DNA of 39,736 nucleotides, taken from positions 1 to 39,736 of the IMG/VR virus record IMGVR_UViG_3300044695_001732; one strand, given 5' to 3'. The notes below the pieces were generated by a model. The model made no database searches. It worked only from the letters and a program-made list of their open reading frames with translations, and was not told the DNA's origin. The translations under genes were made by a program, and so were the position numbers. Origin of the DNA: a virus. Numbering within the stretch: position 1 is the first letter of the stretch; the number at the start of each line of letters is the position of its first letter. Shown here piece after piece: positions 1 through 39,736 of this stretch.

Positions 1-155
1 AATGATTCCAGTTGTGCTGGTTCCGTTTGATGCGTTGGCATTCAATGGTGCGCGTGGTGTCTCAATGAAACGAACCGACTCAAAAGTGCCGATTTCGCCA
101 TTGTAGATACCTGCTGTGTCCACGTTGACGTGAGGTGCATTCCATGCAGCGTTAC
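1..155. repeat. Terminal direct repeat, left copy (matches 39582-39736)
   Basis: Bases 1-155 match 39582-39736 with two differences: base 127 is G here and A at 39708, base 139 is A here and G at 39720. The repeat lies wholly inside the capsid gene. A repeat of this size at contig ends usually means an assembler closed a circular or circularly permuted molecule. Because both changes are silent, it looks like two strain variants meeting at the assembly joint rather than a true packaged terminal repeat. Confidence 0.93.
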
Positions 156-744
156 CGGTTTCACGACGAAGATCGTATGAAACGTCTGGGTGAATGTAAC
201 CCATGTAGTAGCCGTTGAATGTTGCAACGTTTGCTGAACGCAAAGCTGCTGTCTGCTTACGAACATCGTTTGCAGTCAAAATTGCGTCAACCTTAACCGA
301 CTCACGGCTTGTTGGAACTGCTGCGCCACCCGTAGCGTAAGCCACGTTTGTGCCTGCACCCAAAACTGCTTGAACAACTGTGTCGATCGAAAGACCAGCG
401 TTGTAGCCAATCAAGTTTGCGGCAGTTGCATCAACATCAAGGAACGCTGTTCCACGAAGTTTTGCAGTTGTCTGAACGGTGTTACCGTATTCAGCAAGAG
501 TTACAGTTACTTGGCTGTCACCCATTGTTGCAGGGGTGAGGTCCGAAGTTTCGGTGAGTGTTGAGGTAGCTGCTGCCAATTCGGAGAAAATCGTGAAGAT
601 CACCGAAGAACCAGGCATAGCCTGATTGGTTGCTTGGACATCTGCTGCTTGGTCAAACAACAGTTCTGAACGGAGAGCGAAATACGCTAACCGGTCGTAC
701 GCCGCCTGGTCGACACTGAGTGAACTTGCTTGTGTAATTGCCAC
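1..744 (-). CDS. Major capsid protein, N4-gp56-like (N-terminal 248 codons; runs off the window start)
   Basis: Forms the icosahedral head shell. The frame opens at GTG 744 (first residues VAITQASSLSVDQAAYDRLA) with AAAGGA about seven bases upstream, and stays open to base 1. Through the 155-base end overlap it continues in frame into 39581-39357, giving 322 residues in all. The joined protein has the layout I associate with N4-gp56 family capsid proteins: a bundle of Ala-rich helices, a TSDLTP segment, a central YYMGYIHPDV stretch, then EIGTFESVRFIETPRAP and a C-terminal RRIEGASSIG. It directly follows the scaffold-like gene, the usual capsid order. Family assignment is by motif memory, not by search. 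The two base differences between the end copies (127 and 139) are third-position and silent. Confidence 0.85.
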   Translation of the reverse strand, partial: MAITQASSLSVDQAAYDRLAYFALRSELLFDQAADVQATNQAMPGSSVIFTIFSELAAATSTLTETSDLTPATMGDSQVTVTLAEYGNTVQTTAKLRGTAFLDVDATAANLIGYNAGLSIDTVVQAVLGAGTNVAYATGGAAVPTSRESVKVDAILTANDVRKQTAALRSANVATFNGYYMGYIHPDVSYDLRRETGNAAWNAPHVNVDTAGIYNGEIGTFESVRFIETPRAPLNANASNGTSTTGII

Positions 745-12210: not shown

Positions 12211-14184
12211 CTAAATCCAAGTGGGTCGCCACTGTTTTGGTGGGGCAACGGCAGCACGCAAATGTGGCATGTGTAGTTCAGCAAACCAATGTGCCATCAC
12301 AAGGTCAGTACCGTTCTTTTTATTTCTAGTCCACGTTGACATCTCATCAATGAATGCCATTGTCTTCCAGTTGTCTCTCATCGAGGGCAATCGCACTTGC
12401 CCTGTTCTCCATAGCGGCGGCAAAAGAGCCTCAACTCCAAGGTTTTCATCCAGCTTGTTCCTAGACGTAGTGTGCGGCACGACATTGACGGTGTGTAACG
12501 CTTGCCATTTGCGAACGAAATCATGTGCCAAAAGAAACCTTTGCGCCGCATTAACTTCCACCACCCAATGTGAAATCGGATAACCCATCTCAAAGGAACG
12601 ATTTTGCCAATCCTCCATAATGCCAGAATAGGTGCGGCTTCCTGTATCAAACCCAAGGAGTTCTTCCGCTGTGAGCCGAATTCGTTCAACATCTACTAAG
12701 TATCTTAGGTTAGTTTCCGGTTGGAACAACCACCATTGGATAGCCCAGAACTGGGTTGGCGAAGGGTCAACTGACGCAATCGAAATGATCGGTGGACGTA
12801 ACCCAGGTGGGATATACCCTGGTCTACGGTCCGCATCAATACACCCTGGGTACATGGTGCCGTCGTTTCCGATACCTCCAGTAGCCCAAGTGCGCTCAAT
12901 CAGGTACGCACCTTCAGCCATGTTCTCCTGTTGATACACAATCTTAAACTTGGCTGGGTTGTTGTACCGAACATACGATAGATCTTTCCAAGAAAGCCTA
13001 AAGGGGTCAAGCATTGGACCGTCAGGCCATGGTGGGGCCGACTGTTTCCTAGAAGCAGGCCCAGTGTCCAACTCCTCGTAATAGGCTTTGTAGATTAGGT
13101 GATGATATTTATGTTTCTTAGTTGGTTCAACAGTAGGTTCATCTATGGTGGTCACATCTGACCCGTCATAGGTGTCTTCAAAGTCGTCGTAAGTAATTTT
13201 TGATAGGCAATGCGCGTACAAATCTTGTGGTCCAAGCCTCTGCCCAATCACAGCCAGCACACCACCTGGATCTACACGGGCTTCAGCCATCGAATCCCAC
13301 CGTTCCAGCAACTTATCCCTAGAAATAGACTCTTTAGAGTTTTCAGGGGAAGCAACGTCGTCAAATAGCACCAGATCGGCACGGTGACCAATGAACTCTG
13401 AGTCAATACCGTAAGCAGAGACGGTAGGTTCCTTGTTGTCCAGACCACCAATGTTCTGTTGCTCAACAATAAACTCCTCGGCACGCCACAAAGCGTTCAC
13501 AGTATTGGGTTTAAACCGCCCATAATCTAACGACAAGCATGATTCAGCGTTTAAAGCTAACCCTCGACGCACCATATCGGGGTCAGGGTGCAAAGGGACA
13601 GTCCTTTCAAGGGTGTCCCTGATACGACGCGAGTACATCTTAGCCAAAGTTTGTGATACAGAACCGATCATCACACGGATAGCCCTATTACGAACAATCA
13701 TCCACACAGCCACATCATGAAACAACGTGGACTTACCAGCACCAGGAGGAACATTCAACACCAAAAACTCTTTTTCCTCAGATTGCAAATACTCCACAAT
13801 CTTGTAAGCCGCATCAACCTGCCAAGGAGACGGAACACGACCCAAATAAACCCTACGGAAATAATCGAAATCATCCAACCCACGTTGCGCCCGCTCAGAC
13901 AAACGACCCGTAGGAATAACAGGAGGCAAACTATCCCCAGCCACCACCTGCTTCGCTACAGCACGCTGACGCTTACCACCATGAGACGCATCCTCCTTAC
14001 CTTCAAGCAAAGAAACCTCAGCCAACTCCGCTTTAGTTCTCTTAGCCTTATTAGACCAATTAATCGCAGTACGATAATTGATACCCGCAATCTTCGCAGC
14101 TTCAGTAATAGACAACCCAGAATTTAAAGCCTGCCAAAAAAGTGCACGATCATTAGCAGAAACAGTGCGTTTACCTTTAGTCAT
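12211..14184 (-). CDS. terL: Terminase large subunit with N-terminal HTH domain, 657 aa
   Basis: ATP-driven DNA packaging motor and nuclease. Residues about 18-46 form a helix-turn-helix (SGLSITEAAKIAGINYRTAI) like those of small terminase subunits. A linker follows, then the ATPase: Walker A PPGAGKST at 146-153 and Walker B ADLVLFDDVA at 269-278. The C-terminal RNase-H-like nuclease has SIASVDPSPTQ (Asp 473), a VDVERI strand (Asp 498) and VVEVNAAQRF (Glu 543). No separate small subunit gene is seen, so the HTH may supply DNA recognition. The ATG at 14184 has only a weak ribosome site; a perfect AGGAGG about 40 bases upstream lies in a hairpin. The first ~165 codons prefer T/G at the third base while the rest prefers C/A more, hinting at a recombinant origin. 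Confidence 0.92.
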   Translation of the reverse strand: MTKGKRTVSANDRALFWQALNSGLSITEAAKIAGINYRTAINWSNKAKRTKAELAEVSLLEGKEDASHGGKRQRAVAKQVVAGDSLPPVIPTGRLSERAQRGLDDFDYFRRVYLGRVPSPWQVDAAYKIVEYLQSEEKEFLVLNVPPGAGKSTLFHDVAVWMIVRNRAIRVMIGSVSQTLAKMYSRRIRDTLERTVPLHPDPDMVRRGLALNAESCLSLDYGRFKPNTVNALWRAEEFIVEQQNIGGLDNKEPTVSAYGIDSEFIGHRADLVLFDDVASPENSKESISRDKLLERWDSMAEARVDPGGVLAVIGQRLGPQDLYAHCLSKITYDDFEDTYDGSDVTTIDEPTVEPTKKHKYHHLIYKAYYEELDTGPASRKQSAPPWPDGPMLDPFRLSWKDLSYVRYNNPAKFKIVYQQENMAEGAYLIERTWATGGIGNDGTMYPGCIDADRRPGYIPPGLRPPIISIASVDPSPTQFWAIQWWLFQPETNLRYLVDVERIRLTAEELLGFDTGSRTYSGIMEDWQNRSFEMGYPISHWVVEVNAAQRFLLAHDFVRKWQALHTVNVVPHTTSRNKLDENLGVEALLPPLWRTGQVRLPSMRDNWKTMAFIDEMSTWTRNKKNGTDLVMAHWFAELHMPHLRAAVAPPKQWRPTWI

Positions 14185-14205
14185 GTTATGCTCAACGCTA
14201 GCAGT

Positions 14206-14254
14206 TCCACAGGGTTAAAGGATATGTCCTCCTCGTGGTTGTGGTCCCTGTGGA
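14206..14254 (-). promoter_or_regulatory. Hairpin in the terminase leader enclosing an AGGAGG
   Basis: A 9-bp perfect inverted repeat, TCCACAGGG (minus strand) against CCCTGTGGA, arms 14206-14214 and 14246-14254. The loop carries the strong ribosome-binding sequence AGGAGG, which can itself pair locally (AGGA.CATA.TCCT). It lies 22-70 bases upstream of the terminase start. It may control terminase translation or be part of a terminase recognition site; either is inference from structure and position. Confidence 0.4.
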
Positions 14255-14270
14255 CTGCTACAGTATTAAC

Positions 14271-14341
14271 TGTTGGTGGGTGTGCCTGTAGAGATAGTTT
14301 CGTCGGGTTACTAACTCCAGGGTTCCCCTCACCCACCAACA
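14271..14341. repeat. 12-bp perfect inverted repeat upstream of the terminase
   Basis: TGTTGGTGGGTG at 14271-14282 pairs exactly with CACCCACCAACA at 14330-14341, separated by 47 bases that contain GTTACTAAC and GGG.TT.CCC mini-palindromes. Neither side has a T-run, so a terminator is unlikely. Next to a terminase gene with its own HTH, this is a reasonable candidate for a pac or cos recognition structure. Confidence 0.5.
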
Positions 14342-14539
14342 TTAAAAACATCTGCTACACTCAACACACACTCGTCGGGAAGACGACACACAAAAACTCC
14401 ACGGTCGTACCCTCGTTGCACAGGGCGGGACACAAACCCACGGGAACGTGGTCTTACCCACATGCGTCGACATGAGGGAGCAGCGTAATGAACGCCACAT
14501 CATTAAAACAAAAGTGTCGGTCCACAAGACTACGGCGAC

Positions 14540-14560
14540 TTTTCCACAACCTGTGGATAA
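14540..14560. promoter_or_regulatory. Inverted pair of DnaA-box-like sequences
   Basis: TTTTCCACA at 14540-14548 faces TGTGGATAA at 14552-14560. The second is, on the minus strand, TTATCCACA, the consensus bacterial DnaA box; the first differs at one position. The two are three bases apart and sit beside an A/T-rich stretch (14586-14672) that could melt. This suggests a host-DnaA-dependent origin or a DnaA-regulated promoter. A single pair can arise by chance, so confidence is limited. Confidence 0.4.
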
Positions 14561-14773
14561 ACAGTGGGGGGAACACCGCACACCCCAAATGCATATAAAA
14601 GGTGAACAACCGCAACCCCTCAAAGAGCCCCTTAATACGCAAATATACGGGAACGCTTATAGATATATACCAGACCCGTGCTGACGGCATACCCCCAGTC
14701 CTCAACACGGACATACGGACATGCTTTTGTGTCGCACACTACACGGATGACGTCCGATTGGGACTGCAACCGA

Positions 14774-14816
14774 GGCGCGCAACGAGTCGCCTCTTGGCGA
14801 CGAGATTGCGCGCGCC
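14774..14816. repeat. Two-tier stem-loop, GC-rich
   Basis: The outer arms GCGCGCAA (14775-14782) and TTGCGCGC (14806-14813) enclose an inner perfect stem GTCGCC TCTT GGCGAC (14786-14801), with short internal bulges. Such a long stacked hairpin with a four-base loop is unlikely by chance. There is no flanking T-run, so it is more likely an RNA structure, a protein-binding cruciform or a processing site than an intrinsic terminator. Confidence 0.55.
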
Positions 14817-14857
14817 CACAAAACGGATATAACAGATACACGCAGCGAAGTCAATAT

Positions 14858-15273
14858 CTAACCGACTTACACCGAGTCGCGGCATTTTTTTTAGGGCGCC
14901 TGGTGCACACGAATACGGCACAACTAGATCGACGTCCTCGAGTCGGTCGAGTCCTCGAGGTTGCCTAGTCGAGTTGGTTGGTTGGTCGTCTCGACTTCTG
15001 ATTGTGTTGGTTTGCCCTGGGCACTTGTCGCGTGTTTGTTTTTTGGTGTTGTCTCGTGGCTTCTGTGTGCGTGGTTTTTTGGTCTGGTGCGTGTTTTCGT
15101 CTAATCGACTTAGTCTCGATGTGTGCCGGAGTTTGGTTGTCGAGTTTTGCTCGAGGTCGAGTGTCTAATCGTTTTAGATGTTTGCGCGTTGGGGCCGGTA
15201 GTTCGCGAGTTCTAATCGACTTAGTTGTTTTGTTTGTTCGAGCTGCGTAATTTGCGATTTGTAATCGAGTTAG
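14858..15273. promoter_or_regulatory. Array A: five 13-bp palindromic sites downstream of the MoxR/VWA operon
   Basis: Sites: 14858-14870 CTAACCGACTTAC, 15101-15113 CTAATCGACTTAG, 15165-15177 CTAATCGTTTTAG, 15212-15224 CTAATCGACTTAG and 15261-15273 GTAATCGAGTTAG. Positions 2-4 (TAA) and 10-12 (TTA) never vary. The last four are spaced 64, 47 and 49 bases apart, and parts of the spacers repeat (CTCGAGGTCGAGTGT at 15150-15164 and 15302-15316). They lie between the last operon gene and the terminase. Operators or stoperators for a repressor are the simplest reading. The binding protein is unknown. Confidence 0.7.
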
Positions 15274-15487
15274 TTTGTTGCGTCGAGTTTTGTTTCGCGC
15301 GACTCGAGGTCGAGTGTTGTGTCGGGTTTTGCCCTGGGGGATTGTGTCGAGTTGTTTGTTTGCGTCGCTCTAATGCGTTCCTATTGCGTGTTTTTTTGTG
15401 CTGGAACGCGAAACGACCTCAAGTCCGACTCGCCAGGGGATTGCGCGAATGGGACTCGAGGTCGTCGAGTGTTGAGACGTGCGCCGA
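15274..15487. other. Gene-free spacer at the 3' side of the island operon
   Basis: No believable gene. The sequence is dense in TCGAG words and holds further copies of CTCGAGGTCG (15302 and 15453 areas) and an incomplete palindrome half (CTAATGCG near 15370). No intrinsic terminator (GC stem plus T-run on the minus strand) was found after the stop at 15488, so the operon may read through toward the terminase. Confidence 0.5.
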
Positions 15488-16423
15488 TTAGTTGTCGGGG
15501 TCGTTGTCTCCGAGTTTGTTTCCTGCGACTGCTGTCCTAATAAAGAACGTCGCGAAGTGTTCGGCGAGTTTGCCGTACTTCCCTTTCATGACGTCGAGGA
15601 CGGCGTCGAGTGTTCCTTCGTCGTCTGCGATTGTGTTGTGTAGTGGTGTCTCCCAGTCTGTGTCGTTGTCGACTCGAGCAAACACTTCCATGCCGTAGGG
15701 GTGCGCGATGAGAAGCGTCCGAGCGTGTAACGGTTCGTCGATTGGTTCTCGAGTCTCGGGGTCGACGGCTTGCGCTTTGCCCCAGGTCAAGAGTGCGACG
15801 ATGTCGGGCGCGTACGTTTTGCCGAGTTGCTTCGAGGCTTCCTCGCTGTCGAGTAAGTCCATTAGTTCGTTCTGATCGGCTTCTCGTAGTAGTTCGATTG
15901 AGACGGCAACGGACTCACCTCGACCGAGGTCGGGATCGTTGAGTTGTTTTCGTTCCTCGATCGTGACCTGGAATAATGCGTACTCGCCTCGTTCCTTTTG
16001 TGGGAATGCTTGCATGAGTTGACGATCGATCTCGGGCATGAGTAGACGATTGACTGCTCGAGCCTGGCGCTCCTCGTCGCGTGACTTGGTCGACATCTCC
16101 TCGATCTGCTCCTCGGCACTCGCTACCTCGTAGGCGTCGAGCGCGTCGAGTTGTGGCATGTTGTCGAGGAACGTGTCGATCATGTCGACGGTTTTCACGT
16201 CGTCGAGTTCGATCGCCAGGTTCTTGGCTCGAGTTGCTACCTGGATTAGTTGAGCGCGTAACGCGACGATACTCGAGTGCCGATCCCGAGCGTGTTCCTC
16301 GTTGTCTGTCGACTTGTGCTCGAGTGCTTCGCTAATCGTGTTCATAGTTGTTTCTGTGAGATCGCGTAGGCGTCTCTTTGTGTTCTCGAGCGTGGCTCGT
16401 TTTTGGTTGTCGTTGGTTGTCAT
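15488..16423 (-). CDS. Unknown protein, last gene of the MoxR/VWA operon, 311 aa
   Basis: Not recognised. ATG 16423 (MTTNDNQKRATLEN) is chosen because AGGACC lies seven bases upstream and the ATG overlaps the stop of the 60-residue gene as ATGA; the open frame extends 36 codons further with no ribosome site. The N-terminal half is helical and charged (about 5-150, with RDEERQARAVNRLLMPEIDR). The C-terminal half looks like an alpha/beta domain with APDIVALLTWGKAQAVDPET, TLLIAHPYGMEVFARVD and KLAEHFATFFIRTA. Acidic overall, no membrane segment. Phage operons with a MoxR ATPase and a VWA protein often carry a third protein thought to be an adaptor or client. That parallel is inference; no homology is claimed. 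Confidence 0.75.
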   Translation of the reverse strand: MTTNDNQKRATLENTKRRLRDLTETTMNTISEALEHKSTDNEEHARDRHSSIVALRAQLIQVATRAKNLAIELDDVKTVDMIDTFLDNMPQLDALDAYEVASAEEQIEEMSTKSRDEERQARAVNRLLMPEIDRQLMQAFPQKERGEYALFQVTIEERKQLNDPDLGRGESVAVSIELLREADQNELMDLLDSEEASKQLGKTYAPDIVALLTWGKAQAVDPETREPIDEPLHARTLLIAHPYGMEVFARVDNDTDWETPLHNTIADDEGTLDAVLDVMKGKYGKLAEHFATFFIRTAVAGNKLGDNDPDN

Positions 16424-16602
16424 TTGGGTCCTGCTTTCTTTTGTTGGTTGTGGTTTATTTTCTCGCGCCTGGCTCTGATGAGTTCGGCGTTTCGATTTGT
16501 GCGCTCCTCGAGTGTTGGTTTGTTTGCCCACTCGATGAGCATGCAGAGAGCGATCGCGCTCGCTGGTGGTGTTAATGCGATGACGTAATATCCAATTTCC
16601 AT
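16420..16602 (-). CDS. Small single-pass membrane protein in the island operon, 60 aa
   Basis: Starts at ATG 16602 (MEIGYYVIALTPPASAIALC) with AAAGGA eight bases upstream; a longer same-frame reading to 16971 has no support. The first ~24 residues are hydrophobic and could span the membrane once. The rest is charged (EERTNRNAELIRARREKINH) and would be a cytoplasmic tail. The stop overlaps the start of the 311-residue gene by four bases (ATGA). Together with the 27-residue peptide just upstream it makes a tandem pair of tiny membrane proteins inside a MoxR/VWA operon. It could anchor the complex at the membrane or be holin-like; neither is shown. Confidence 0.72.
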   Translation of the reverse strand: MEIGYYVIALTPPASAIALCMLIEWANKPTLEERTNRNAELIRARREKINHNQQKKAGPK

Positions 16603-16606
16603 ATTT

Positions 16607-16690
16607 TTATCCTTTCCAAATATCTTTAAGATGTCGTAGTCCGATTGCAACGATGATGATGATGAATAGTCCGAGGTCATTTGTTGGCAT
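16607..16690 (-). CDS. Putative 27-residue membrane peptide
   Basis: ATG 16690 lies inside the last codons of the VWA gene (14-base overlap) with GGAG ten bases upstream. The frame reads MPTNDLGLFIIIIVAIGLRH and ends LKDIWKG-stop, four bases before the next ATG; the ribosome site of the 60-residue gene is made by its last codons (AAA GGA). The core LGLFIIIIVAIGL is very hydrophobic, long enough for one short span, followed by basic residues. Tight coupling on both sides argues for a real gene despite its length; only protein or ribosome data would settle it. Confidence 0.55.
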   Translation of the reverse strand: MPTNDLGLFIIIIVAIGLRHLKDIWKG

Positions 16691-18152
16691 TGCGTCGCGT
16701 CTCCATATAGTGAGCCGTTGCGATGTCGTTCGACCTGATTGTCGCTTCTCGTGCGCTCTGTGGAACGCCGATCTGCGCGTGGTGGTAGAGATGCGCGTGA
16801 ATCTGTGGAGCGACTCGATGACCTCGAGACATTTTCTCGATGAGGTGAATCGCTTCGCGTGAGTTCAGACAATGAATCGCTCGAGCCTGGCGAAGTTTGT
16901 CGATCATGTCTCGAGCGAGTGCGCTCGTTCCATAGTTGCGCGTTCCCGAGATGTCTCCGTCGCTCACCCAAATAACTGGCATCGATGACGACTTGCGATA
17001 TTTGTCGAGCGCGTACTTAAACGCCGAGCCGTCGCAGTCGTTGCCACCAGGTACGTCGGGAAGTTCCTCGACGCGATGTCCGTCTTTTGCGAGGATCCAA
17101 ACGTTCGGGGAATCTCCACCAGTTCCCGAGTAGCCGAGCACGACTGCACCTCGAGCCGACTCGATCATCTCGTCGAGTTCCTCGGGTGTGTAGTCCATGC
17201 TTCCCGACATATCGAGCACGACGAGCGCCGATTTGCCTCGTCCTTTTGTGCCGTAAATTCGACGCTGTGGATCTGTCATGAGTCGCGACGGATAACGAAC
17301 AGCACGACCTCGATCGGTCGAAGTTCGCTTCGTTCCGATTTTGCCGACGTGCTTTCGCTTGAGGTTTAACGGCGCGAGTACGACGTCATGCCATGCCGAG
17401 CCGTCGCCAAATTGTGGCGCGAGTTTCGCTTTAAAGTGATCGAGATCGGTCGAGTCGTTCTCGTCGCCTGGCTCGGCTTGTGAGCCTGGCTTTCCTCGTA
17501 GTGCTTCCTCGTATCGTTCTCGACCTCTCGAGATCATCTCGCAAACTTTCAAGATTAGATTCTCGTCTCGACGGCATGGTGAGCCGTCGACTCGTCTCGT
17601 GTGAGTGATCTCCGTCGACGGCTTCGACATATATGTCTCGAGGAACTCGGTCGCGTCTTTGCGTAATTCGTTTAACGCTTTGACGGCGTCCTTGTTTGTT
17701 TCGCCGATCGTGCGAAGTATTGCTCGAGCCTGTTGCGTCATGAGGTGAGGCAACGCACTCGAGAACGCTTGCTCGATTGGAATCTGCGACACTTGCTCGG
17801 CGAGTGCCGAGCCTGTGCCGTCGATCCAGGCGTCGCGCTTCACGTCGAGGACTAAGTTCGTTAGATGTTGAGTCCACCAAACTCGAGCGATTTGCAAGTC
17901 GCGCTCGCTTACTCGTTGTTGTTTTGCGACCTCGACGGGATCGGTGAAGTCGTAACGCGCCTGCACGAGTGCAAAAGTGCGTAACAATTTCCCTAATCGA
18001 GTTGGGTCGTTCGGTGCGATGAGTTGCCCGAGTTTCGCGTTTGCCAGGACGCTCGAGATGAGTGGAACGCCTGTCGAGACGCTCCACGAGTTCGGGTTTT
18101 CATCTTGTCGGCGCGACAAGTATTCGGGTCTTGCTCGTTGTGGCTGTGTCAT
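16677..18152 (-). CDS. VWA-domain (CobT-like) protein, partner of the MoxR ATPase, 491 aa
   Basis: The C-terminal part is a von Willebrand A domain: strand ALVVLDMSGSMD with the metal site DxSxS at 314-318, a second metal loop GGNDCDG at about 369-375 and a third strand VIWVSDGDISGT at about 394-404. The N-terminal ~300 residues are helical with a charged hinge (EPGDENDSTD, about 227-236) and a basic run before the VWA domain (KRKHVGKIGTKRTSTDRGRA). This layout resembles CobT and other VWA proteins that work with MoxR-type AAA+ ATPases as metal chelatases or remodelling chaperones. It starts two bases after the ATPase stop. Arg codons are CGA/CGC and Leu codons CTC, unlike the CGT/TTG use of flanking genes. 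The substrate is unknown. Confidence 0.88.
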   Translation of the reverse strand: MTQPQRARPEYLSRRQDENPNSWSVSTGVPLISSVLANAKLGQLIAPNDPTRLGKLLRTFALVQARYDFTDPVEVAKQQRVSERDLQIARVWWTQHLTNLVLDVKRDAWIDGTGSALAEQVSQIPIEQAFSSALPHLMTQQARAILRTIGETNKDAVKALNELRKDATEFLETYMSKPSTEITHTRRVDGSPCRRDENLILKVCEMISRGRERYEEALRGKPGSQAEPGDENDSTDLDHFKAKLAPQFGDGSAWHDVVLAPLNLKRKHVGKIGTKRTSTDRGRAVRYPSRLMTDPQRRIYGTKGRGKSALVVLDMSGSMDYTPEELDEMIESARGAVVLGYSGTGGDSPNVWILAKDGHRVEELPDVPGGNDCDGSAFKYALDKYRKSSSMPVIWVSDGDISGTRNYGTSALARDMIDKLRQARAIHCLNSREAIHLIEKMSRGHRVAPQIHAHLYHHAQIGVPQSAREATIRSNDIATAHYMETRRNANK

Positions 18153-18154
18153 GT

Positions 18155-18871
18155 CTAGAGTTCCAACGAGTTCACAGCGTGAGCCGTTGTCAATGTCTCG
18201 ACGTGTTGAGGTGCGACGAGTTCGACGGCACGTTGTACGCCGAGAGTGTTCGACAAGTGAGCGATCGCCATGAACGCGCGAAGTGAGAGACGATCGTCGT
18301 CGGTCGACTTGCAGAGTTGACGCGCTGGTTCTTGCAACCAGGTAGGCAACTGTGCGATCGCGTTCGGGTGCGCTTCGTTAATCTCGATGCAGACAGGGAA
18401 TCGATCTCGTAGTGCTTCATGCAACGAGTTCGGGTGCGAGTTCGTTGTCACGACGACGGTGAATCCCGACGCAGGTCGAACGATTTCGCCAGTGAGAGGG
18501 TGATCCCAACGTGCTGTCGCTTCGCTGTCGCAGAATTGGAGCAACGAGCCGAGTGCGTCGCCTGACGCCTTGTCGATCTCGTCGATGATGAGTCGCCCAC
18601 CATTGCGCCAGGCTTGAGGAGCCGAGCCCTCGAGAAACGCCGACTCTGTGAGTGACGGCTTCATCATGCCCTCGATCTGTGCCGTGGTCATGTCATCGGT
18701 GCAACCGATCTTAAATGAGCCACCAGCGCCGAGATGTGCTGTTTGTGCCGTGTATGTTTTGCCGATACCTGGCAAGCCGTACACAAGGACGTGATCGAGT
18801 TTTGCTCGCAACGTGTCCTCGAGTGCTTGCCAACAGGCTGGCAGAGTTTGAGTGTTATCTAGTGTTTCCAA
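18155..18871 (-). CDS. MoxR/CobS-like AAA+ ATPase, 238 aa
   Basis: ATP-driven remodelling enzyme. The TTG at 18871 (METLDNTQTL) is chosen because AAGAGG stands six bases upstream; the open frame runs to 18964 through a palindromic operator and has no ribosome site there. Motifs: Walker A GLPGIGKT at 32-39, Walker B RLIIDEID at 93-100, sensor 1 VVTTN at 140-144, arginine finger ALRDRF at 153-158, then a helical lid. A GSAPQAWRNGG segment before Walker B is typical of the MoxR/CobS clade, where an insert contacts the VWA partner. At 238 residues it is a minimal version. It is first in the operon, with palindromes 54-290 bases upstream of its start that are likely to control it. Confidence 0.88.
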   Translation of the reverse strand: METLDNTQTLPACWQALEDTLRAKLDHVLVYGLPGIGKTYTAQTAHLGAGGSFKIGCTDDMTTAQIEGMMKPSLTESAFLEGSAPQAWRNGGRLIIDEIDKASGDALGSLLQFCDSEATARWDHPLTGEIVRPASGFTVVVTTNSHPNSLHEALRDRFPVCIEINEAHPNAIAQLPTWLQEPARQLCKSTDDDRLSLRAFMAIAHLSNTLGVQRAVELVAPQHVETLTTAHAVNSLEL

Positions 18872-18924
18872 TGTATGCCTCTTTCGTGGTTGGTTTTCAT
18901 GGACTATCGTCCACGTCGTTAATA

Positions 18925-19162
18925 CTAACCGATTTAGACGCCTGGGTGGTGCATCGAGCTGCAACGTTGGCGCGAAGTAATTGGGTTAGATCGCCTTTGT
19001 TTATCGGGTCGAATTGCCGTCGAGTCCAGGTCGAGCCGTCCTCGAGCGAGGTCGAGGATCTAATCGACTTAGGTCGAGGAATTGCACTCTGGGGCAATTT
19101 TCGGATCTAACGCGCTTAGATGAATTTTCCGCGATGGGGCTCGAGCCGTCTAATGCCATTAG
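18925..19162. promoter_or_regulatory. Array B: five 13-bp palindromic sites upstream of the MoxR/VWA operon
   Basis: Sites: 18925-18937 CTAACCGATTTAG, 18977-18989 GTAATTGGGTTAG, 19060-19072 CTAATCGACTTAG, 19107-19119 CTAACGCGCTTAG and 19150-19162 CTAATGCCATTAG. The 19060 copy is identical to 15101 and 15212 in array A. Spacings are 52, 83, 47 and 43 bases. Spacers share TGGGGC words (near 19090 and 19136, compare 15190). The whole 18872-19313 stretch lacks genes, so it is the promoter region of the ATPase operon with an operator array. A promoter box could not be placed with confidence. Confidence 0.72.
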
Positions 19163-19283
19163 TCGCCGATTTTCTTCGCTTAGGGCCGGAACGCTGAGAG
19201 TGAGATTCCGAACGCGCAGAGTGAAGTTACCGGCCAGTAACCGAACGTTTGTTCGCGACCTGCGACCCCCCTGTTACGCATAC

Positions 19284-19311
19284 ATCGGTAGCGCAGATAT
19301 CGGTAGCGCAG
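19284..19311. repeat. Two tandem 13-bp direct repeats at the 3' end of the methyltransferase
   Basis: ATCGGTAGCGCAG occurs at 19284-19296 and 19299-19311, a 15-base period, ending three bases before the methyltransferase stop codon. The period is between one and two helical turns, so it is not an ideal dimer site. It could be the last trace of a junction between the native phage DNA and the island, or a small iteron-type element. Confidence 0.5.
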
Positions 19312-19313
19312 TC

Positions 19314-20390
19314 TTACAACTTAATGATTTGTTCTGCTATCCATTTTGCTACCGGTGATGCAACTCCGTTACCTATCTGTTTAAATCTTGCGGTGTCTGA
19401 TTGTTCTGTTCCGTCAGCACGATACTTTGTGTGGTCGTCCCGCCAGCCCATCAGCCGTTCGCACTCTAATGGTGTTAGTCGACGCACTGCCATCGTTGGT
19501 TCAGCTATAAACATTTGTGCGTGATGTGATTGAGTTGATGGTTGCAGCGCAGATAGCGAGTTTGAGTAATCTAATTCGGTTGCACTGAAGTTCTTTGCTT
19601 TTGCATCTTCTCGGATTGAGTATGCGATAGCGGTGGTGGCACGAATATCTCCAATGTCAAATTGATTTAGTGTTGGAATTATTTCTCCTTCAACCCAGGT
19701 TTCGTGGTCGTTTACTGATTGTGCTCTTCTTGACTTTGTGAATGTAATGCTTTCTCCAGTTGTTCTGGCAGTTTTTTCCCGTGTCGTTGTGCTCTTTTTA
19801 ATATTCCCTGACAGGCTTCGGGCGACAGGTAGTATCGGATTGGGACATCTATCGGCGATAGTAGGATCGAACGCAGCGAGCACAAAAACCCTTCTCCGTC
19901 TGTGGGGTACTCCAAAATATTGTGCGTCCAGCACTGACCATTCTTGGACCAACGCCCCTGCTTTAGCCATTTCGTCGAGGATAACCCCGAAGTCATTGCC
20001 GTTGTTGGAAGTGAGTGCTCCGACGACGTTTTCCCAAATAGAGATTCTTGGATACTGTCCATTAGTTAAGTCCCTTAGTTCTTTGATGATCCGGATACCT
20101 TCGTAAAACAGGTTAGATTGTTTTCCTTCTAAGCCTTCTCGTTTTCCAGCGACGCTGAGGTCTTGACATGGGCTTCCCCATGCAACAACATCTATCTCAG
20201 GTGCGTGTTTAAGTATGTATGCGCCAGTTAATGTGGATACATCGCCCCATCTGGGGACGTCAGGCCAGTGACGCTCTAAGACGCTTAGACAGTGCTTGTC
20301 GTATTCGCATTGGAATACTGTTTCCATTCCTGCTGCTTCTAAACCCATATCAAATCCCCCCACTCCCGAAAAAAGTGAGAGGACTTTCAT
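19314..20390 (-). CDS. DNA (cytosine-5) methyltransferase, 358 aa
   Basis: Transfers a methyl group from S-adenosylmethionine to C5 of cytosine in a short DNA target. All main motifs are present: I LFSGVGGFDMG (6-16), IV GSPCQDLS (72-79, catalytic Cys 75), VI WENVVG (119-124), VIII QYFGVPHRRRRVF (157-169), then a target-recognition region of about 100 residues, IX RRLTPLECERLMGW and X QIGNGVASPVAKW. The ATG at 20390 overlaps the upstream stop (ATGA); a TTG three codons earlier is less likely. No endonuclease gene is adjacent, so this is an orphan enzyme, most likely shielding phage DNA from host restriction. Its composition matches the phage, not the neighbouring island. The target site cannot be read from the sequence. 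Confidence 0.93.
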   Translation of the reverse strand: MKVLSLFSGVGGFDMGLEAAGMETVFQCEYDKHCLSVLERHWPDVPRWGDVSTLTGAYILKHAPEIDVVAWGSPCQDLSVAGKREGLEGKQSNLFYEGIRIIKELRDLTNGQYPRISIWENVVGALTSNNGNDFGVILDEMAKAGALVQEWSVLDAQYFGVPHRRRRVFVLAAFDPTIADRCPNPILPVARSLSGNIKKSTTTREKTARTTGESITFTKSRRAQSVNDHETWVEGEIIPTLNQFDIGDIRATTAIAYSIREDAKAKNFSATELDYSNSLSALQPSTQSHHAQMFIAEPTMAVRRLTPLECERLMGWRDDHTKYRADGTEQSDTARFKQIGNGVASPVAKWIAEQIIKL

Positions 20391-21359: not shown

Positions 21360-21680
21360 TTACACAATACCTGGGCGTCTAACACTTTGCAAGTATCGTT
21401 TTCTTTCGTTGGCTGACCGACCACCCCAGACACCTTCCATGATCTTGTTCTCAATAGCGAAGTCATAGCATCGTTTCTTCTTGGGGCATTTAGCGCACAC
21501 CAGTTTGGCTTCTCGGCAGTTGCCGTTCTCTGGGAAGAAGGCTTCTAACTCCAAGCCTCTGCATGCCGCCCCATCCATCCACGACATGTCTTTATCTATT
21601 AACGCAAAATCTGAGAATAGTTCCATATAGTTATAGTCCCCACGGTCTAAACCCATTGCCTGTTTTTTTCGAGTAGTCAT
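21360..21680 (-). CDS. WhiB-family transcription regulator, 106 aa
   Basis: WhiB proteins hold a redox-sensitive [4Fe-4S] cluster and bind the host sigma factor. The four cluster cysteines are Cys 40, 62, 65 and 71 (CxxC followed by x5C), with an extra Cys 55, then the family turn GVWGG at 83-87 and a basic tail (RSANERKRYLQSVRRPG) that would touch DNA. WhiB proteins are known only from actinobacteria and their phages, so this gene is the best single clue to the host. It likely shifts host transcription or phage gene timing. It overlaps the transglycosylase gene by 50 bases. Confidence 0.93.
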   Translation of the reverse strand: MTTRKKQAMGLDRGDYNYMELFSDFALIDKDMSWMDGAACRGLELEAFFPENGNCREAKLVCAKCPKKKRCYDFAIENKIMEGVWGGRSANERKRYLQSVRRPGIV

Positions 21681-26564: not shown

Positions 26565-26771
26565 TTAGTTGTGCTTAGACCTTAGATGATCTGTGAGCGC
26601 GGTGTCAATTCTATCTACTTTGTCTTCGGTTCGGTTCAAAGATTTGTGCATGGTGCGCAGGATGCCTTGTACCACTTGGTGGTCTGCATGGTTTTCTTTG
26701 CCTAGTTTGGCAATAATGATTGCTAGCAGACCAAAACTACCAGTAACGACAGCAGCCCAAACAGCATCCAT
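26565..26771 (-). CDS. Small N-terminal-anchored membrane protein, holin-like, 68 aa
   Basis: Start ATG 26771 (MDAVWAAVVTGSFGLLAIII), three bases after the endolysin stop region; a longer frame through the endolysin gene is rejected. Residues about 3-22 are one transmembrane span, followed by a charged helical tail (KLGKENHADHQVVQGILRTM, then NRTEDKVDRIDTALTDHLRS). Placement directly after the endolysin suggests a second holin, an antiholin or a lysis timer. Confidence 0.7.
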   Translation of the reverse strand: MDAVWAAVVTGSFGLLAIIIAKLGKENHADHQVVQGILRTMHKSLNRTEDKVDRIDTALTDHLRSKHN

Positions 26772-26772
26772 G

Positions 26773-27300
26773 TCATACGGCTTTCGCAGCAACGAAGGCT
26801 GCAACCGCAGGCGGAACTTGGTTTCCTTGGGTGTAGCGGATGTGCCACGGTTCGGATTGGACTTCGTGTGAGAAGCCGTAGAGGTGTTCATTGGCTAACA
26901 TCCAAGCAAGTCTAGGTCCTGATGCTGTGGACACATCGACTGCGATACCGAGGTTGTGCTGGCTTTTGCCTGGTGTTGCCAGCATCGCCAAACCTTTTTT
27001 CAGATACCAAGTTTTACCCTCGAATGTTTTGGTGCTGGTTCCGTCTACTTTGTCAAGCGTGTAGCGTGTGAGGAAGCCCCGCTTTTGGGTTTCGTAATCT
27101 CGATATGTGTCACCGCTACTCGTCGGAGTCAGTTTGATACCAGCCTTATCAGCCGCATCAACCATTGCTTCCCACGCATCAGCAGCACAATGATGCAACG
27201 TACCACCAATGGTTTTGCGTAGTTTGTCTGCGGCTAGTTTGCCTGGGACAGCGTTCTTTAGATGGTCACAAAGTTTGACCGGCACAACTGGATATGCCAT
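26773..27300 (-). CDS. Endolysin, M15-type D,D/L,D-peptidase, 175 aa
   Basis: Zinc peptidase of the VanY/M15 group that cuts peptide stems of peptidoglycan. Motifs: SSGDTYRDYETQKRGF (about 61-76, substrate Arg/Asp), SQHNLGIAVDV with zinc ligands His 115 and Asp 122, and SEPWHIRY with catalytic Glu 150 and zinc ligand His 153. No signal peptide or wall-binding repeat, so it needs the holin to reach the wall. It follows the holin by four bases. There is no LysB-like esterase, which argues against a mycolate-containing host. Confidence 0.9.
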   Translation of the reverse strand: MAYPVVPVKLCDHLKNAVPGKLAADKLRKTIGGTLHHCAADAWEAMVDAADKAGIKLTPTSSGDTYRDYETQKRGFLTRYTLDKVDGTSTKTFEGKTWYLKKGLAMLATPGKSQHNLGIAVDVSTASGPRLAWMLANEHLYGFSHEVQSEPWHIRYTQGNQVPPAVAAFVAAKAV

Positions 27301-29168: not shown

Positions 29169-29473
29169 GCCAATGTTTCTTCATCCCACATGTAGTTACC
29201 TTCAGGTTTTGGTGTTGGTGCTTGCCAATCGTTGTTGTCGTCTAGTGACCATGATGCGTATGGTTGTGGTGCTACGAACTCATCTGCGTCAGCGTCATAG
29301 GTGTAGTCGATACCTGCATACTGTTTGCGAATACGGTTGTTGTAACTGGTTTGAACCCATGTGCCACCAAGAAGGTTGTTGCACCACTCTGCGCCGTTGG
29401 TTTCGTGTTCGTCTGCTACAACGATTACTCGTAGGACTTTGTTGTTTGAATCTATTTCTGCAAAATGTGCCAT
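29144..29473 (-). CDS. Tail fibre-associated protein, 109 aa
   Basis: Reads MAHFAEIDSNNKVLRVIVVA, with later GTWVQTSYNNRIRKQYAGID and WDEETLAWV. This is a familiar small phage protein near tail-fibre genes (MAHFA-ID-NN-V-VIV ... GTW-QTSYN ... YAGI-YTYD ... ASW-L). Its exact function is not known; it may be a fibre tip, chaperone or virion surface protein. ATG 29473 has AAAGGA upstream. Confidence 0.82.
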   Translation of the reverse strand: MAHFAEIDSNNKVLRVIVVADEHETNGAEWCNNLLGGTWVQTSYNNRIRKQYAGIDYTYDADADEFVAPQPYASWSLDDNNDWQAPTPKPEGNYMWDEETLAWVAAPVG

Positions 29474-29484
29474 ATTTTTTCCTT

Positions 29485-31182
29485 TTATCCGATTGGGTAT
29501 CTAATAATAACAATGCCAGAACCACCAGCACCTGCGCTTGGACCTGAACCTCTGTCACCACCGCCACCACCACCAGTGTTCGCTGTTCCACTAACACCAC
29601 TTGAAGATGCGTCTGTTCCTCCTGCACCACCGCCACCTGCGCCACCTGCGCCACCTGCACCACCGTCACCTGCACTCGCACCACCACCGCCACCATAAGT
29701 GACAGATGTACCCGTAATGGATGATGCAGTTCCCGCACCACCAGCACCACCGTTTTGAGTTGAAGTAGTGACACCTACAGCACTAGCACCGCCACCGCCA
29801 CCACCGCCAGTAGTACTCGGACTACCAGTGTAACCACCACCAGCAAAACCCTGTCCCGAAGTTCCTGCACCAAACGAAGTACCACTAGCGTTGTTTCCAG
29901 AAGCACCACCGCCCGAACCACCAGTTGATGCAGAAACAGAACCACCGCCACCGCCACCACCACCAGTTGAGGTGATAGAACCAAATACGCTATTACTACC
30001 ACTTGTTCCAGCCACAGATGTTGAAGTAGAACCAGCACCGCCACCACCAACAGTCACCGTATAAGAAGTTCCTGCCGTGAGGGATTGCGTGCCTGCAAGA
30101 AGTCCTCCTGCGCCACCACCACCACCACGACTAAAGCCACCACCACCACCGCCTGCGACAACCAAATACTCTGCGTTCACCAACGAAGGCGGAGCAAAAG
30201 TCACAGTAACCGTACCCGTAGCCGTAAACGACCAAACCGTATATGCACCCGAAGTAGTTACAGTTCCACCTGCAGAGAAAACAGTCAAACGTTGTTTGGA
30301 CGCATCGGCTGTTAGATAACGGAAAATGACAATCCCAGAACCACCTGTACCACCACCAGCAGCATTACCACCACCGCCACCACCAGCACCACGGTTTGCG
30401 GTTCCAGCAGAACCAGCAGTGTTAAGACCTCCATTACCACCACCACCAGTACCACCCGCACCAGCAGTTCCACTAGTAGTAACACCACCACCACCGCCAC
30501 CACCATAAGCAACAGACGAACCACTAATACTGCTAGAAAGACCTGCACCACCAGCACCAGCAACAGTTGTTGCAGACGGAGACACACCTACAGCACCAGC
30601 GCCACCACCACCGCCAGACGGCCAGTACGGACTACCACGCAAAACCAATAAACTTGCACCAGCAAAACCTTGATTCGCTGTTCCTGCTCCGCCCGTGAAA
30701 AGAGTTGCACCTGAACCTCCAGCACCACCACCAGAACCACCAGCAGAACCGTTTGCGGTTCCTCCTGCGCCACCACCAATGGAAGTAATAGAACCCAAAA
30801 CAGAATCAGTGCCATTAGAACCAGCAACACCACCAGCACCAACGGTTACCGTATATGTTCCTGCGACAAGTGAAAGTTTGCTTTCAGCAGAACCACCACC
30901 ACCAGTTGATTCACCTGTTACGGAACTCCGATAGCCACCAGCACCACCACCACCGCCATCGGCTGCACCACCACCACCACCAGCAATAACTAAATACTCG
31001 GTATCCAAACTTTCTGTAGGTTGCGAACCAAACGACAAAGTACCTGTCGCACTAAAAGTATGAACCTTATAGAACACGCCAGCCACAGAAATATATGACT
31101 CAATGCCACCATTAAAAGTTTGTTGCAACTTGTAACGAGGATTCACGTTCACATACTGTGAAACTTTTGTTCTACTACGCAT
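29485..31182 (-). CDS. Glycine-rich tail fibre / adhesin, 565 aa
   Basis: A short N-terminal part with SYISVAGVFYKVHTFSATGT, then two similar halves each beginning EYLV(I/V)AGGGGGG and ending SGIVI(F/I)RY, filled with poly-Gly sheets (GGGGGAGGYRSSVTGESTGG) and TYTVTVG(A/G)GG repeats. Such proteins form poly-glycine-II-like bundles at the tips of phage adhesins and are strongly variable. The start ATG overlaps the stop of the previous fibre gene (TAATG). Together they likely form the receptor-binding apparatus. The internal halves point to duplication. Confidence 0.83.
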   Translation of the reverse strand: MRSRTKVSQYVNVNPRYKLQQTFNGGIESYISVAGVFYKVHTFSATGTLSFGSQPTESLDTEYLVIAGGGGGAADGGGGGAGGYRSSVTGESTGGGGSAESKLSLVAGTYTVTVGAGGVAGSNGTDSVLGSITSIGGGAGGTANGSAGGSGGGAGGSGATLFTGGAGTANQGFAGASLLVLRGSPYWPSGGGGGAGAVGVSPSATTVAGAGGAGLSSSISGSSVAYGGGGGGGVTTSGTAGAGGTGGGGNGGLNTAGSAGTANRGAGGGGGGNAAGGGTGGSGIVIFRYLTADASKQRLTVFSAGGTVTTSGAYTVWSFTATGTVTVTFAPPSLVNAEYLVVAGGGGGGFSRGGGGGAGGLLAGTQSLTAGTSYTVTVGGGGAGSTSTSVAGTSGSNSVFGSITSTGGGGGGGGSVSASTGGSGGGASGNNASGTSFGAGTSGQGFAGGGYTGSPSTTGGGGGGGASAVGVTTSTQNGGAGGAGTASSITGTSVTYGGGGGASAGDGGAGGAGGAGGGGAGGTDASSSGVSGTANTGGGGGGDRGSGPSAGAGGSGIVIIRYPIG

Positions 31183-32048
31183 TATTGCACCGTCACAGTC
31201 GTTGAACCAGTCGAAGTAAACGAATGAATCGTGTACCCACCCGAAGAAGTTATTGTTCCACCACTCACCGAGATACCTGCTGAAGATGCGTCAGAAGTTA
31301 GGTAACGGAAAATCACAATACCGCTACCACCTGTACCACCATTAAAACCAATAATAGCAGCACCACCGCCACCACCAGTGTTTGCTGTGCCTGCTGCACC
31401 TGCACCGCCCGTACCACCGCCACCGTCACCACTCAAACCAGCACCACCACCACTAAGTCTGCCTGCGCCACCACCGCCACGAGTTACAGCCGAACCAGTA
31501 ATTGAACTTGATAAACCGTCACCACCTGCAGAAGTACTGTCAGTGTTACCTAACTCTGATGCACCACCGCCACCGCCAGAGTTGCTAGACGAACCTGCAC
31601 CACCGTTAAAACCTTGAACTGGTGACGCTGTTCGTGTGCCACCTGCAGCACCGCTACCGCCGCCGCCGCCGCCCGACCCGCCTGCCGAACCAGCCGTTGT
31701 AGAAAACCCACCACCACCACCACCAGTAGCAGTAACGCCAGCAATAGAACTAGATGTACCGCTTGTACCAGCAGCAGCAGAAACCGCGCCCGCACCACCA
31801 GCACCAACAGTGACCGTGTATGTGCCAGCACCAATACTTACAGCAGAACGATTTTCTGCGCTACCGCCACCACCAGTTGTTTCACCTACAACGGAGTTTA
31901 TATATCCGCCAGCACCACCACCACCACCAAATTCTAGCCCGCCACCACCACCACCAGCGATAATCAGATACTCAATATCAACAGACGGATTAATCCAGTT
32001 CTTAACCGACTGACCAACCCGCGACCGAGTATCGTAACGAAGCACCAT
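31182..32048 (-). CDS. Glycine-rich tail fibre protein, 288 aa
   Basis: Same architecture as the next gene: EYLIIAGGGGGG start, poly-Gly loops with GGGGSAENRSAVSIGAGTYT, SGIVIFRYLTSDAS near the end and HSFTSTGSTTVTV. It matches one repeat unit of the 565-residue protein, so the two came from tandem duplication and then diverged. It has the N-terminal VLRYDTRSRVGQSVKNWINP attachment-like piece, which may join the fibre to the tail. Confidence 0.8.
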   Translation of the reverse strand: MVLRYDTRSRVGQSVKNWINPSVDIEYLIIAGGGGGGLEFGGGGGAGGYINSVVGETTGGGGSAENRSAVSIGAGTYTVTVGAGGAGAVSAAAGTSGTSSSIAGVTATGGGGGGFSTTAGSAGGSGGGGGGSGAAGGTRTASPVQGFNGGAGSSSNSGGGGGASELGNTDSTSAGGDGLSSSITGSAVTRGGGGAGRLSGGGAGLSGDGGGGTGGAGAAGTANTGGGGGAAIIGFNGGTGGSGIVIFRYLTSDASSAGISVSGGTITSSGGYTIHSFTSTGSTTVTVQ

Positions 32049-39356: not shown

Positions 39357-39736
39357 TTAGGAAGCGTTTGCACCAATGCTTGATGCGCCTTCAATACGAC
39401 GCAACGAGGCTTCGCGGAAGCGACCGTAGCCACCCAACCAGTACCAACCGATTGGATTGAAACGGAGCAAACTGTCCACGACAGGACCACGAACAACCTT
39501 TGGAACAACACCGTTACCATCGATTGCTGAGTAAGCCTTAGCCAAAGCCTGACGGCCCATGATCAAAGTGCTGTAAACGTCAATGATTCCAGTTGTGCTG
39601 GTTCCGTTTGATGCGTTGGCATTCAATGGTGCGCGTGGTGTCTCAATGAAACGAACCGACTCAAAAGTGCCGATTTCGCCATTGTAGATACCTGCTGTGT
39701 CCACGTTAACGTGAGGTGCGTTCCATGCAGCGTTAC
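39357..39736 (-). CDS. Major capsid protein, C-terminal part (continues from 744-1 across the contig ends)
   Basis: The same gene as at 1-744: the frame entering from 39736 reads VNVDTAGIYNGEIGTFESVR, then FIETPRAPLNANASN and an end GASSIGANAS with stop at 39357. The frame matches the left copy, so closing the circle gives one 322-residue protein. The last ~75 codons after the overlap hold the C-terminal helices (VRGPVVDSLLRFNPIGWYWL) of the N4-gp56-like capsid fold. The terminator follows 26 bases downstream. Confidence 0.88.
   Translation of the reverse strand, partial: NAAWNAPHVNVDTAGIYNGEIGTFESVRFIETPRAPLNANASNGTSTTGIIDVYSTLIMGRQALAKAYSAIDGNGVVPKVVRGPVVDSLLRFNPIGWYWLGGYGRFREASLRRIEGASSIGANAS
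39582..39736. repeat. Terminal direct repeat, right copy (matches 1-155)
   Basis: Identical to 1-155 except A for G at 39708 and G for A at 39720. Both positions are third codon bases in the capsid gene (Val GTC/GTT and Asn AAT/AAC). See the left copy. Confidence 0.93.

Follow-up and report, generated by a model that had tools for sequence, protein, structure and literature searches.

A phage-borne MoxR-type ATPase-VWA cassette with two conserved micropeptides and a third protein that accompanies the likely loss of a zinc site

INTRODUCTION

NorQ and NorD form a MoxR AAA+ ATPase/von Willebrand factor A (VWA) pair that inserts iron into the membrane-bound nitric oxide (NO) reductase. In this machine, a finger of the VWA protein sits in the pore of the ATPase, a linker is stretched, and the complex acts on a membrane enzyme (PMC13036017). 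MoxR/VWA pairs that resemble cobST occur widely among the tailed viruses (PMC8651126, PMC7824862), and jumbo phages carry a MoxR-vWA pair with a fused metallopeptidase (PMC7824862). The archaeal Acidianus two-tailed virus (ATV) encodes a MoxR ATPase and a VWA partner, p618 and p892, that act as a virion chaperone (PMC4124505). Here we describe a locus built around such a pair in the virus record IMGVR_UViG_3300044695_001732, the whole 39,736 bases of which constitute the window that was analyzed. The locus, at positions 15488 to 18871 on the minus strand, consists of five contiguous open reading frames (ORFs) that encode an AAA+ ATPase, a VWA protein, two micropeptides of 27 and 60 amino acids, and a third protein of 311 amino acids.

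RESULTS

The five-gene order recurs in other phages. A first-pass annotation of the window had proposed five coupled minus-strand genes, and all five ORFs were confirmed in their places. In gene order, the junctions are a gap of 2 bp, an overlap of 14 bp, a gap of 4 bp, and an overlap of 4 bp. Relatives were drawn from a terminase scan that yielded 54 loci, 19 of them with a VWA match, and from a VWA-profile scan that yielded 80 loci, the two sets being partly overlapping. The full five-gene order was found in six further phage contigs, with VWA identities of 33 to 62% where the proteins were aligned; L002 and L003 carry all five genes in the same order, and their ATPases (~74 to 76%) and VWA proteins (60 to 62%) are identical to those of the window to the extents given. 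L024 is on the same contig as L003, and this contig is called G001. The first-pass annotation had stated that its proposal would fall if the order occurred only here or if the peptides were not conserved; the order recurs in these six contigs, and both peptides are conserved and under purifying selection.

The ATPase (P0001; 18155-18871) has 238 amino acids, a TTG start, and the features of the MoxR/CobS-like AAA_5 clade. It matched Pfam AAA_5 at 61.5 bits (cut-off, 22), and the MoxR model AAA_3 gave 22.7, below its cut-off of 27. Its PHROG matches were phrog_16448 ("ATPase"; 117.7 bits) and phrog_249 ("porphyrin biosynthesis"; 57.7 bits); there was no CobS model among its NCBIfam matches. The Walker A motif GLPGIGKT (residues 32 to 39; 18755-18778), in which G32, G35, and GKT are conserved in the alignment, the Walker B motif LIIDE (residues 94 to 98; 18578-18592), and the arginine finger LRDRF are intact, as first annotated, and are joined by a sensor-1 motif, TTN, and a sensor-2 motif, SLRAF. 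The segment MTTAQIEGMMKPSLTESAFLEGSAPQAW, judged by eye from sequence alone, sits at the expected place of the helix-2 insert that engages the VWA finger.

The VWA protein (P0002; 16677-18152; 491 amino acids) matched phrog_33218 at 185 bits and has an N-terminal domain homologous to the phage zincin domain, a low-confidence linker, and a C-terminal VWA domain; its AlphaFold2 (AF2) model has a predicted local distance difference test (pLDDT) score of 82. The metal ion-dependent adhesion site (MIDAS) motif, DMSGS, at residues 314 to 318 (17199-17213), bears out the earlier reading of an intact metal site: DxSGS is invariant in all 25 rows of the VWA alignment, with N371, D374, and D398 invariant beside it. 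A fold search with residues 302 to 448, the C-terminal VWA part of the model, returned a list filled by VWA chains, in agreement with a VWA fold carrying a DxSxS MIDAS, and its top solved match was the VWA domain of NorD in the NorQ-NorD complex (9qh8). The VWA_CoxE family was matched by 8 of the 25 VWA homologues (best E value, 3.2e-4). The CobT families of Pfam and NCBIfam gave no match to the VWA protein at E values up to 1, and tblastn gave no match to it in a cultured or GenBank phage.

The missing zinc site goes with a third protein. Among 86 aligned nonredundant phage VWA proteins, HExxH is present at one aligned position in 50, nearly all of which have EExRVN downstream of it, and is absent from 36, including that of the window. 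The window has RTFALVQARY at this position (residues 58 to 67; 17952-17981) and hence lacks the zinc site of a fused metallopeptidase. Since the N-terminal domains with and without the site are homologous (hhalign E value, 6e-15) and HExxH also occurs in three outgroup VWA proteins, the likely direction of change is loss of the site. The VWA protein of L025, which was assigned to the HExxH type by a whole-protein pattern, shows no site in the aligned columns, and that assignment was rejected.

Third proteins were grouped with two profiles, family A, of the window type, and family B, of 220 to 240 amino acids. A third protein of either family scored above 25 bits in 29 of the 36 site-less loci (31 when L026, a weak match, and L083, cut by the contig end, are counted) and in none of the 50 HExxH loci. 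The site-less loci L057/L074, L070, L125, and L151 have other partners or none that was recognized. ATPase trees require two to three state changes for the zinc site and the third protein. The loss of the zinc site together with the arrival of an accompanying third protein appears to be new.

The third protein of the window (P0005; 15488-16423) is predicted to have long N-terminal helices followed by an alpha/beta domain (AF2 model; pLDDT, 75). It is 47% identical to its counterparts in L002 and L003; further homologues are present in L050, L025, L079, and L080, and weakly in L026. Its mean identity is 19 to 29%, compared with 76 to 85% for TerL. The third protein had no Pfam or NCBIfam family beyond chance-level matches, no convincing PHROG match, no noteworthy natural match among PDB sequences, and no tblastn match in a cultured or GenBank phage; a Foldseek search of the PDB with the model gave nothing below an E value of 1e-3. 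Below that value, the BFVD matches of the model were four phage proteins of 150 to 234 amino acids without known function. The VIA rows for the third protein span its N-terminal helices only, where Z values of up to ~13 are uninformative. Thus, the earlier description of the 311-amino-acid protein as unrecognized holds for families and PDB folds, but homologues do exist in other phage loci. In L031, L032, L043, L048, L061, L076, L107, and others, a family B paralogue is encoded on the upstream side of the ATPase gene as well, so that two copies flank the ATPase-VWA pair in these loci.

The micropeptides are under purifying selection. Micropeptide 1 (P0003; 16607-16690; 27 amino acids), MPTNDLGLFIIIIVAIGLRHLKDIWKG, has a conserved start, a hydrophobic core, and a charged tail, while micropeptide 2 (P0004; 16420-16602; 60 amino acids), traced through its positional counterparts, has a hydrophobic segment and then a basic tail. 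Both are present in seven contigs (the window, L002, L003, L050, L025, L026, and L079), and L080 has a variant of micropeptide 1 only (MPTDPISL...). In L002 and L003, identity to the window is 89% for the 27-mer and 71 to 72% for the 60-mer. M1, P2, T3, N4, D5, and L8 of micropeptide 1 are invariant in a six-row alignment, and its start, MPTND, is near-invariant across relatives and is conserved also where there is no overlap with the VWA gene, as in L025. The ratio of nonsynonymous to synonymous substitution rates (dN/dS) was 0.03 to 0.05 for micropeptide 1 (two pairs, window-L002 and window-L024, with few sites) and 0.22 to 0.24 for micropeptide 2; the other two frames of the peptide stretch gave ~0.4 and ~1.2. 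Because they are conserved and under purifying selection, both micropeptides are very probably real genes. They are confined to one sublineage, and many relatives have an ATPase-VWA-third protein arrangement without peptides. The view that tiny membrane peptides form part of the set stands as to their conservation but applies to one sublineage, in which the addition of two putative membrane peptides appears to be new. Other short hydrophobic ORFs, unlike the MPTND peptides, directly follow the VWA gene in L057/L074 (65 amino acids) and L070 (25 amino acids). An extra stretch at 6656-6876 of L003, with an ORF of ~73 amino acids, separates the 60-mer from the third protein and is not found in the window or L002.

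The cassette was swapped as a unit. The window and G001 are close relatives, with TerL 99% and portal 95% identical. Their DNA identity is ~67 to 69% in the cassette and ~83 to 91% in most other aligned blocks. Synonymous divergence (dS) ranged from 0.9 to saturation inside the cassette, where dN was always the lower of the two, and was 0.16 to 0.41 in five noncassette genes (TerL, portal, ERF-like, YqaJ-like, and VRR-like). High dS in the cassette and low dS elsewhere place the common ancestor of the cassette alleles further back than that of their surroundings; the unit was therefore replaced and did not just evolve fast. Exchange of the cassette as a unit between close relatives appears to be new. 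The tetranucleotide TCGA occurs 23.6 times per kb in the cassette of the window, 2.5 times in that of L024, and 21 to 33 times in those of L050, L025, L026, and L079; this contrast fits import and suggests that the allele of the window was acquired recently. The L002 cassette is also TCGA poor. In the window, TCGA and all 27 CTCGAG sites concentrate in 14000-20000. A cytosine-methyltransferase-like gene at 19314-20390 has its best match, 61%, in G001, its middle part being without a DNA match, and the DNA downstream of it is ~90% identical to G001. The glycine-rich tail-fiber-like ORFs at 29200-32000 form a second divergent island, in which the DNA matches that of G001 little or at low identity.

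Core virion genes occur with and without the cassette. Sixteen near-full-length genomes were compared, of which one is the window and the other 15 came out of the terminase scan; they were chosen by length and not at random. The ATPase-VWA pair is present in 10 and lacking in 6. TerL, portal, the 374-, 539-, and 1687-amino-acid proteins, and the 610-amino-acid tail protein were found in 10/10 carriers and 6/6 noncarriers.

Surroundings of the locus. The cassette sits just upstream of TerL, from which the third protein gene is separated by ~1.1 kb (14352-15487) with no convincing gene and no Rfam match; within this gap, the ~920 bases nearest TerL share 85% identity with L024. A capsid-like ORF is cut at both ends of the window (1-744 and 39357-39734), and because it overruns both ends with repeated residues and sequence, the window is circular or permuted. 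No Rfam families or tRNAs were found in the window; promoter-like sites were no more common than in shuffled sequences, and terminator-like sites were only slightly more so. A WhiB-like ORF at 21360-21680, assigned by eye, suggests an actinobacterial host; a scan of genome contigs found no relative and no host or prophage.

DISCUSSION

In this study, we have delineated a conserved phage cassette in which a MoxR/VWA pair is accompanied by a third protein and two micropeptides. Our favored, though tentative, interpretation is that it encodes a NorQD-like, membrane-associated remodeling module aimed at a protein of the host or of a rival phage and not at the virion. By analogy with NorQD, the ATPase hexamer would grip the VWA protein, and ATP turnover would twist whatever the MIDAS face and the N-terminal domain of the VWA protein hold. 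Engagement of the target may have passed to the third protein, as an adaptor or client, and the pair of hydrophobic micropeptides may hold the complex at the cytoplasmic membrane or form part of the target there. Exchange of the cassette as a unit, and its absence from relatives that have the same core virion genes, make a target in the host or in a rival phage more likely than a part of the virion. It can also be imagined, although we regard this fuller account as rather doubtful, that, once an ancestral VWA-metallopeptidase had lost its zinc site, the motor came to serve a separate, fast-evolving targeting protein together with membrane micropeptides, giving a cassette, now traded between phages, by which a membrane protein of the host is disabled or rebuilt.

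Several points weigh against this interpretation. Few independent events, two or three changes and not 36, underlie the link between zinc loss and the third protein. Families A and B, which are possibly related, are joined weakly (hhalign E value, 1.1e-4; probability, 56%). The Z score of 8.5 for NorD barely exceeds those of other, unrelated VWA domains (~7 to 8.2) in the comparison with the predicted model. Noncarriers may have other hosts, which would weaken their lack of the cassette as an argument against a role in the virion. Finally, we infer complex formation, the membrane location, and the target alike.

The cassette could instead encode a chaperone of virion assembly or maturation in the manner of ATV p618/p892, remodeling a tail, ejection, or capsid protein, with the third protein as its substrate or a structural part. 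Besides the ATV precedent (PMC4124505), the same role has been proposed for jumbo phages (PMC7824862); the cassette is directly upstream of TerL, and a 264-amino-acid protein of the virion region is present in 10/10 carriers versus 3/6 noncarriers. However, the cassette is missing from relatives whose core virion genes are the same, and most virion genes are ~83 to 99% identical to those of G001, yet the large proteins of the cassette allele are only 47 to 76% identical. The role in virion maturation entertained in the first-pass annotation is thus disfavored, and we consider it unlikely.

Superinfection exclusion, in which a membrane-tethered remodeler would block the entry or assembly of a rival phage, would account for the rapid evolution of the third protein, the exchange of the unit, and the hydrophobic peptides, and bacterial MoxR-vWA ternary conflict systems, which are likewise fast evolving, offer a parallel (PMC7159879). 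PADLOC models, however, matched only short P-loop or coiled-coil stretches, and none of the five proteins has an effector domain in Pfam or NCBIfam; there is perhaps one chance in several that this explanation is correct. A catalogued defense system was set aside, as no PADLOC match extended across most of any protein, and so was a VMAP-type system, as the third protein matched no VMAP or effector family in Pfam or NCBIfam.

A lysis or membrane-permeabilizing module, with holin- or pinholin-like micropeptides timed by the ATPase-VWA pair, would fit two hydrophobic peptides under selection, but a peptidase-like gene (26773-27300) and a holin-like small protein (26565-26864), both recognized by eye, lie elsewhere, and most relatives that keep the pair are without peptides; we find this explanation very improbable. 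Weakest is the proposal that the pair serves as cobaltochelatase subunits that borrow host CobN and raise the cobalamin supply, a function suggested for the cobST of tailed viruses (PMC8651126) and echoed by the phrog_249 match of the ATPase at 57.7 bits, since neither Pfam nor NCBIfam gives a CobT match for the VWA protein, the ATPase has no NCBIfam CobS match, and the third protein and peptides are left unexplained, so that we give it hardly any credence.

Phage CobST/MoxR-VWA genes are common and are often labeled as cobalamin genes from similarity alone. The lineage described here speaks against that reading in its own case, with a metal site lost, a dedicated partner, and a set that is swapped among otherwise near-identical phages. 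The locus is a small system that could reveal what phage MoxR-VWA machines really act on, and it contributes two micropeptides, of 27 and 60 amino acids, that are under selection and have a clear genetic context.

The suggestion that this was an undescribed system is upheld in part: the five-gene arrangement is real, conserved, and apparently undescribed, no description of it having been found in the limited collection of literature searched, but the MoxR/VWA core was already known. The micropeptides and third protein appear to be undescribed, and the motor itself belongs to a known type. The likeness to ATV, an archaeal virus with extracellular tail growth, is drawn from the literature and not from sequence. 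Like the MoxR-vWA ternary conflict systems (VMAP, iSTAND), the locus is a single operon in which MoxR and vWA are combined with a third component that evolves fast; however, the published order is VMAP-MoxR-vWA, whereas the order here is MoxR-VWA-third protein, and no VMAP or effector domain was found. The cobST pairs of phages and archaeal viruses and the MoxR-vWA pairs of jumbo phages share with the locus the same two adjacent families and a homologous N-terminal domain, which in them carries HExxH; unlike them, the locus has lost the zinc ligands and gained a third protein and micropeptides, and its ATPase gene comes ahead of the VWA gene, in contrast to the two cyanophages that were examined, where cobS follows the peptidase gene. 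Like NorQ-NorD, the locus pairs a small AAA+ ATPase with a VWA protein whose VWA domain is C-terminal; unlike NorQ-NorD, it is phage borne and without an NO reductase, and it has a zincin-related N-terminal domain, a third protein, and two micropeptides.

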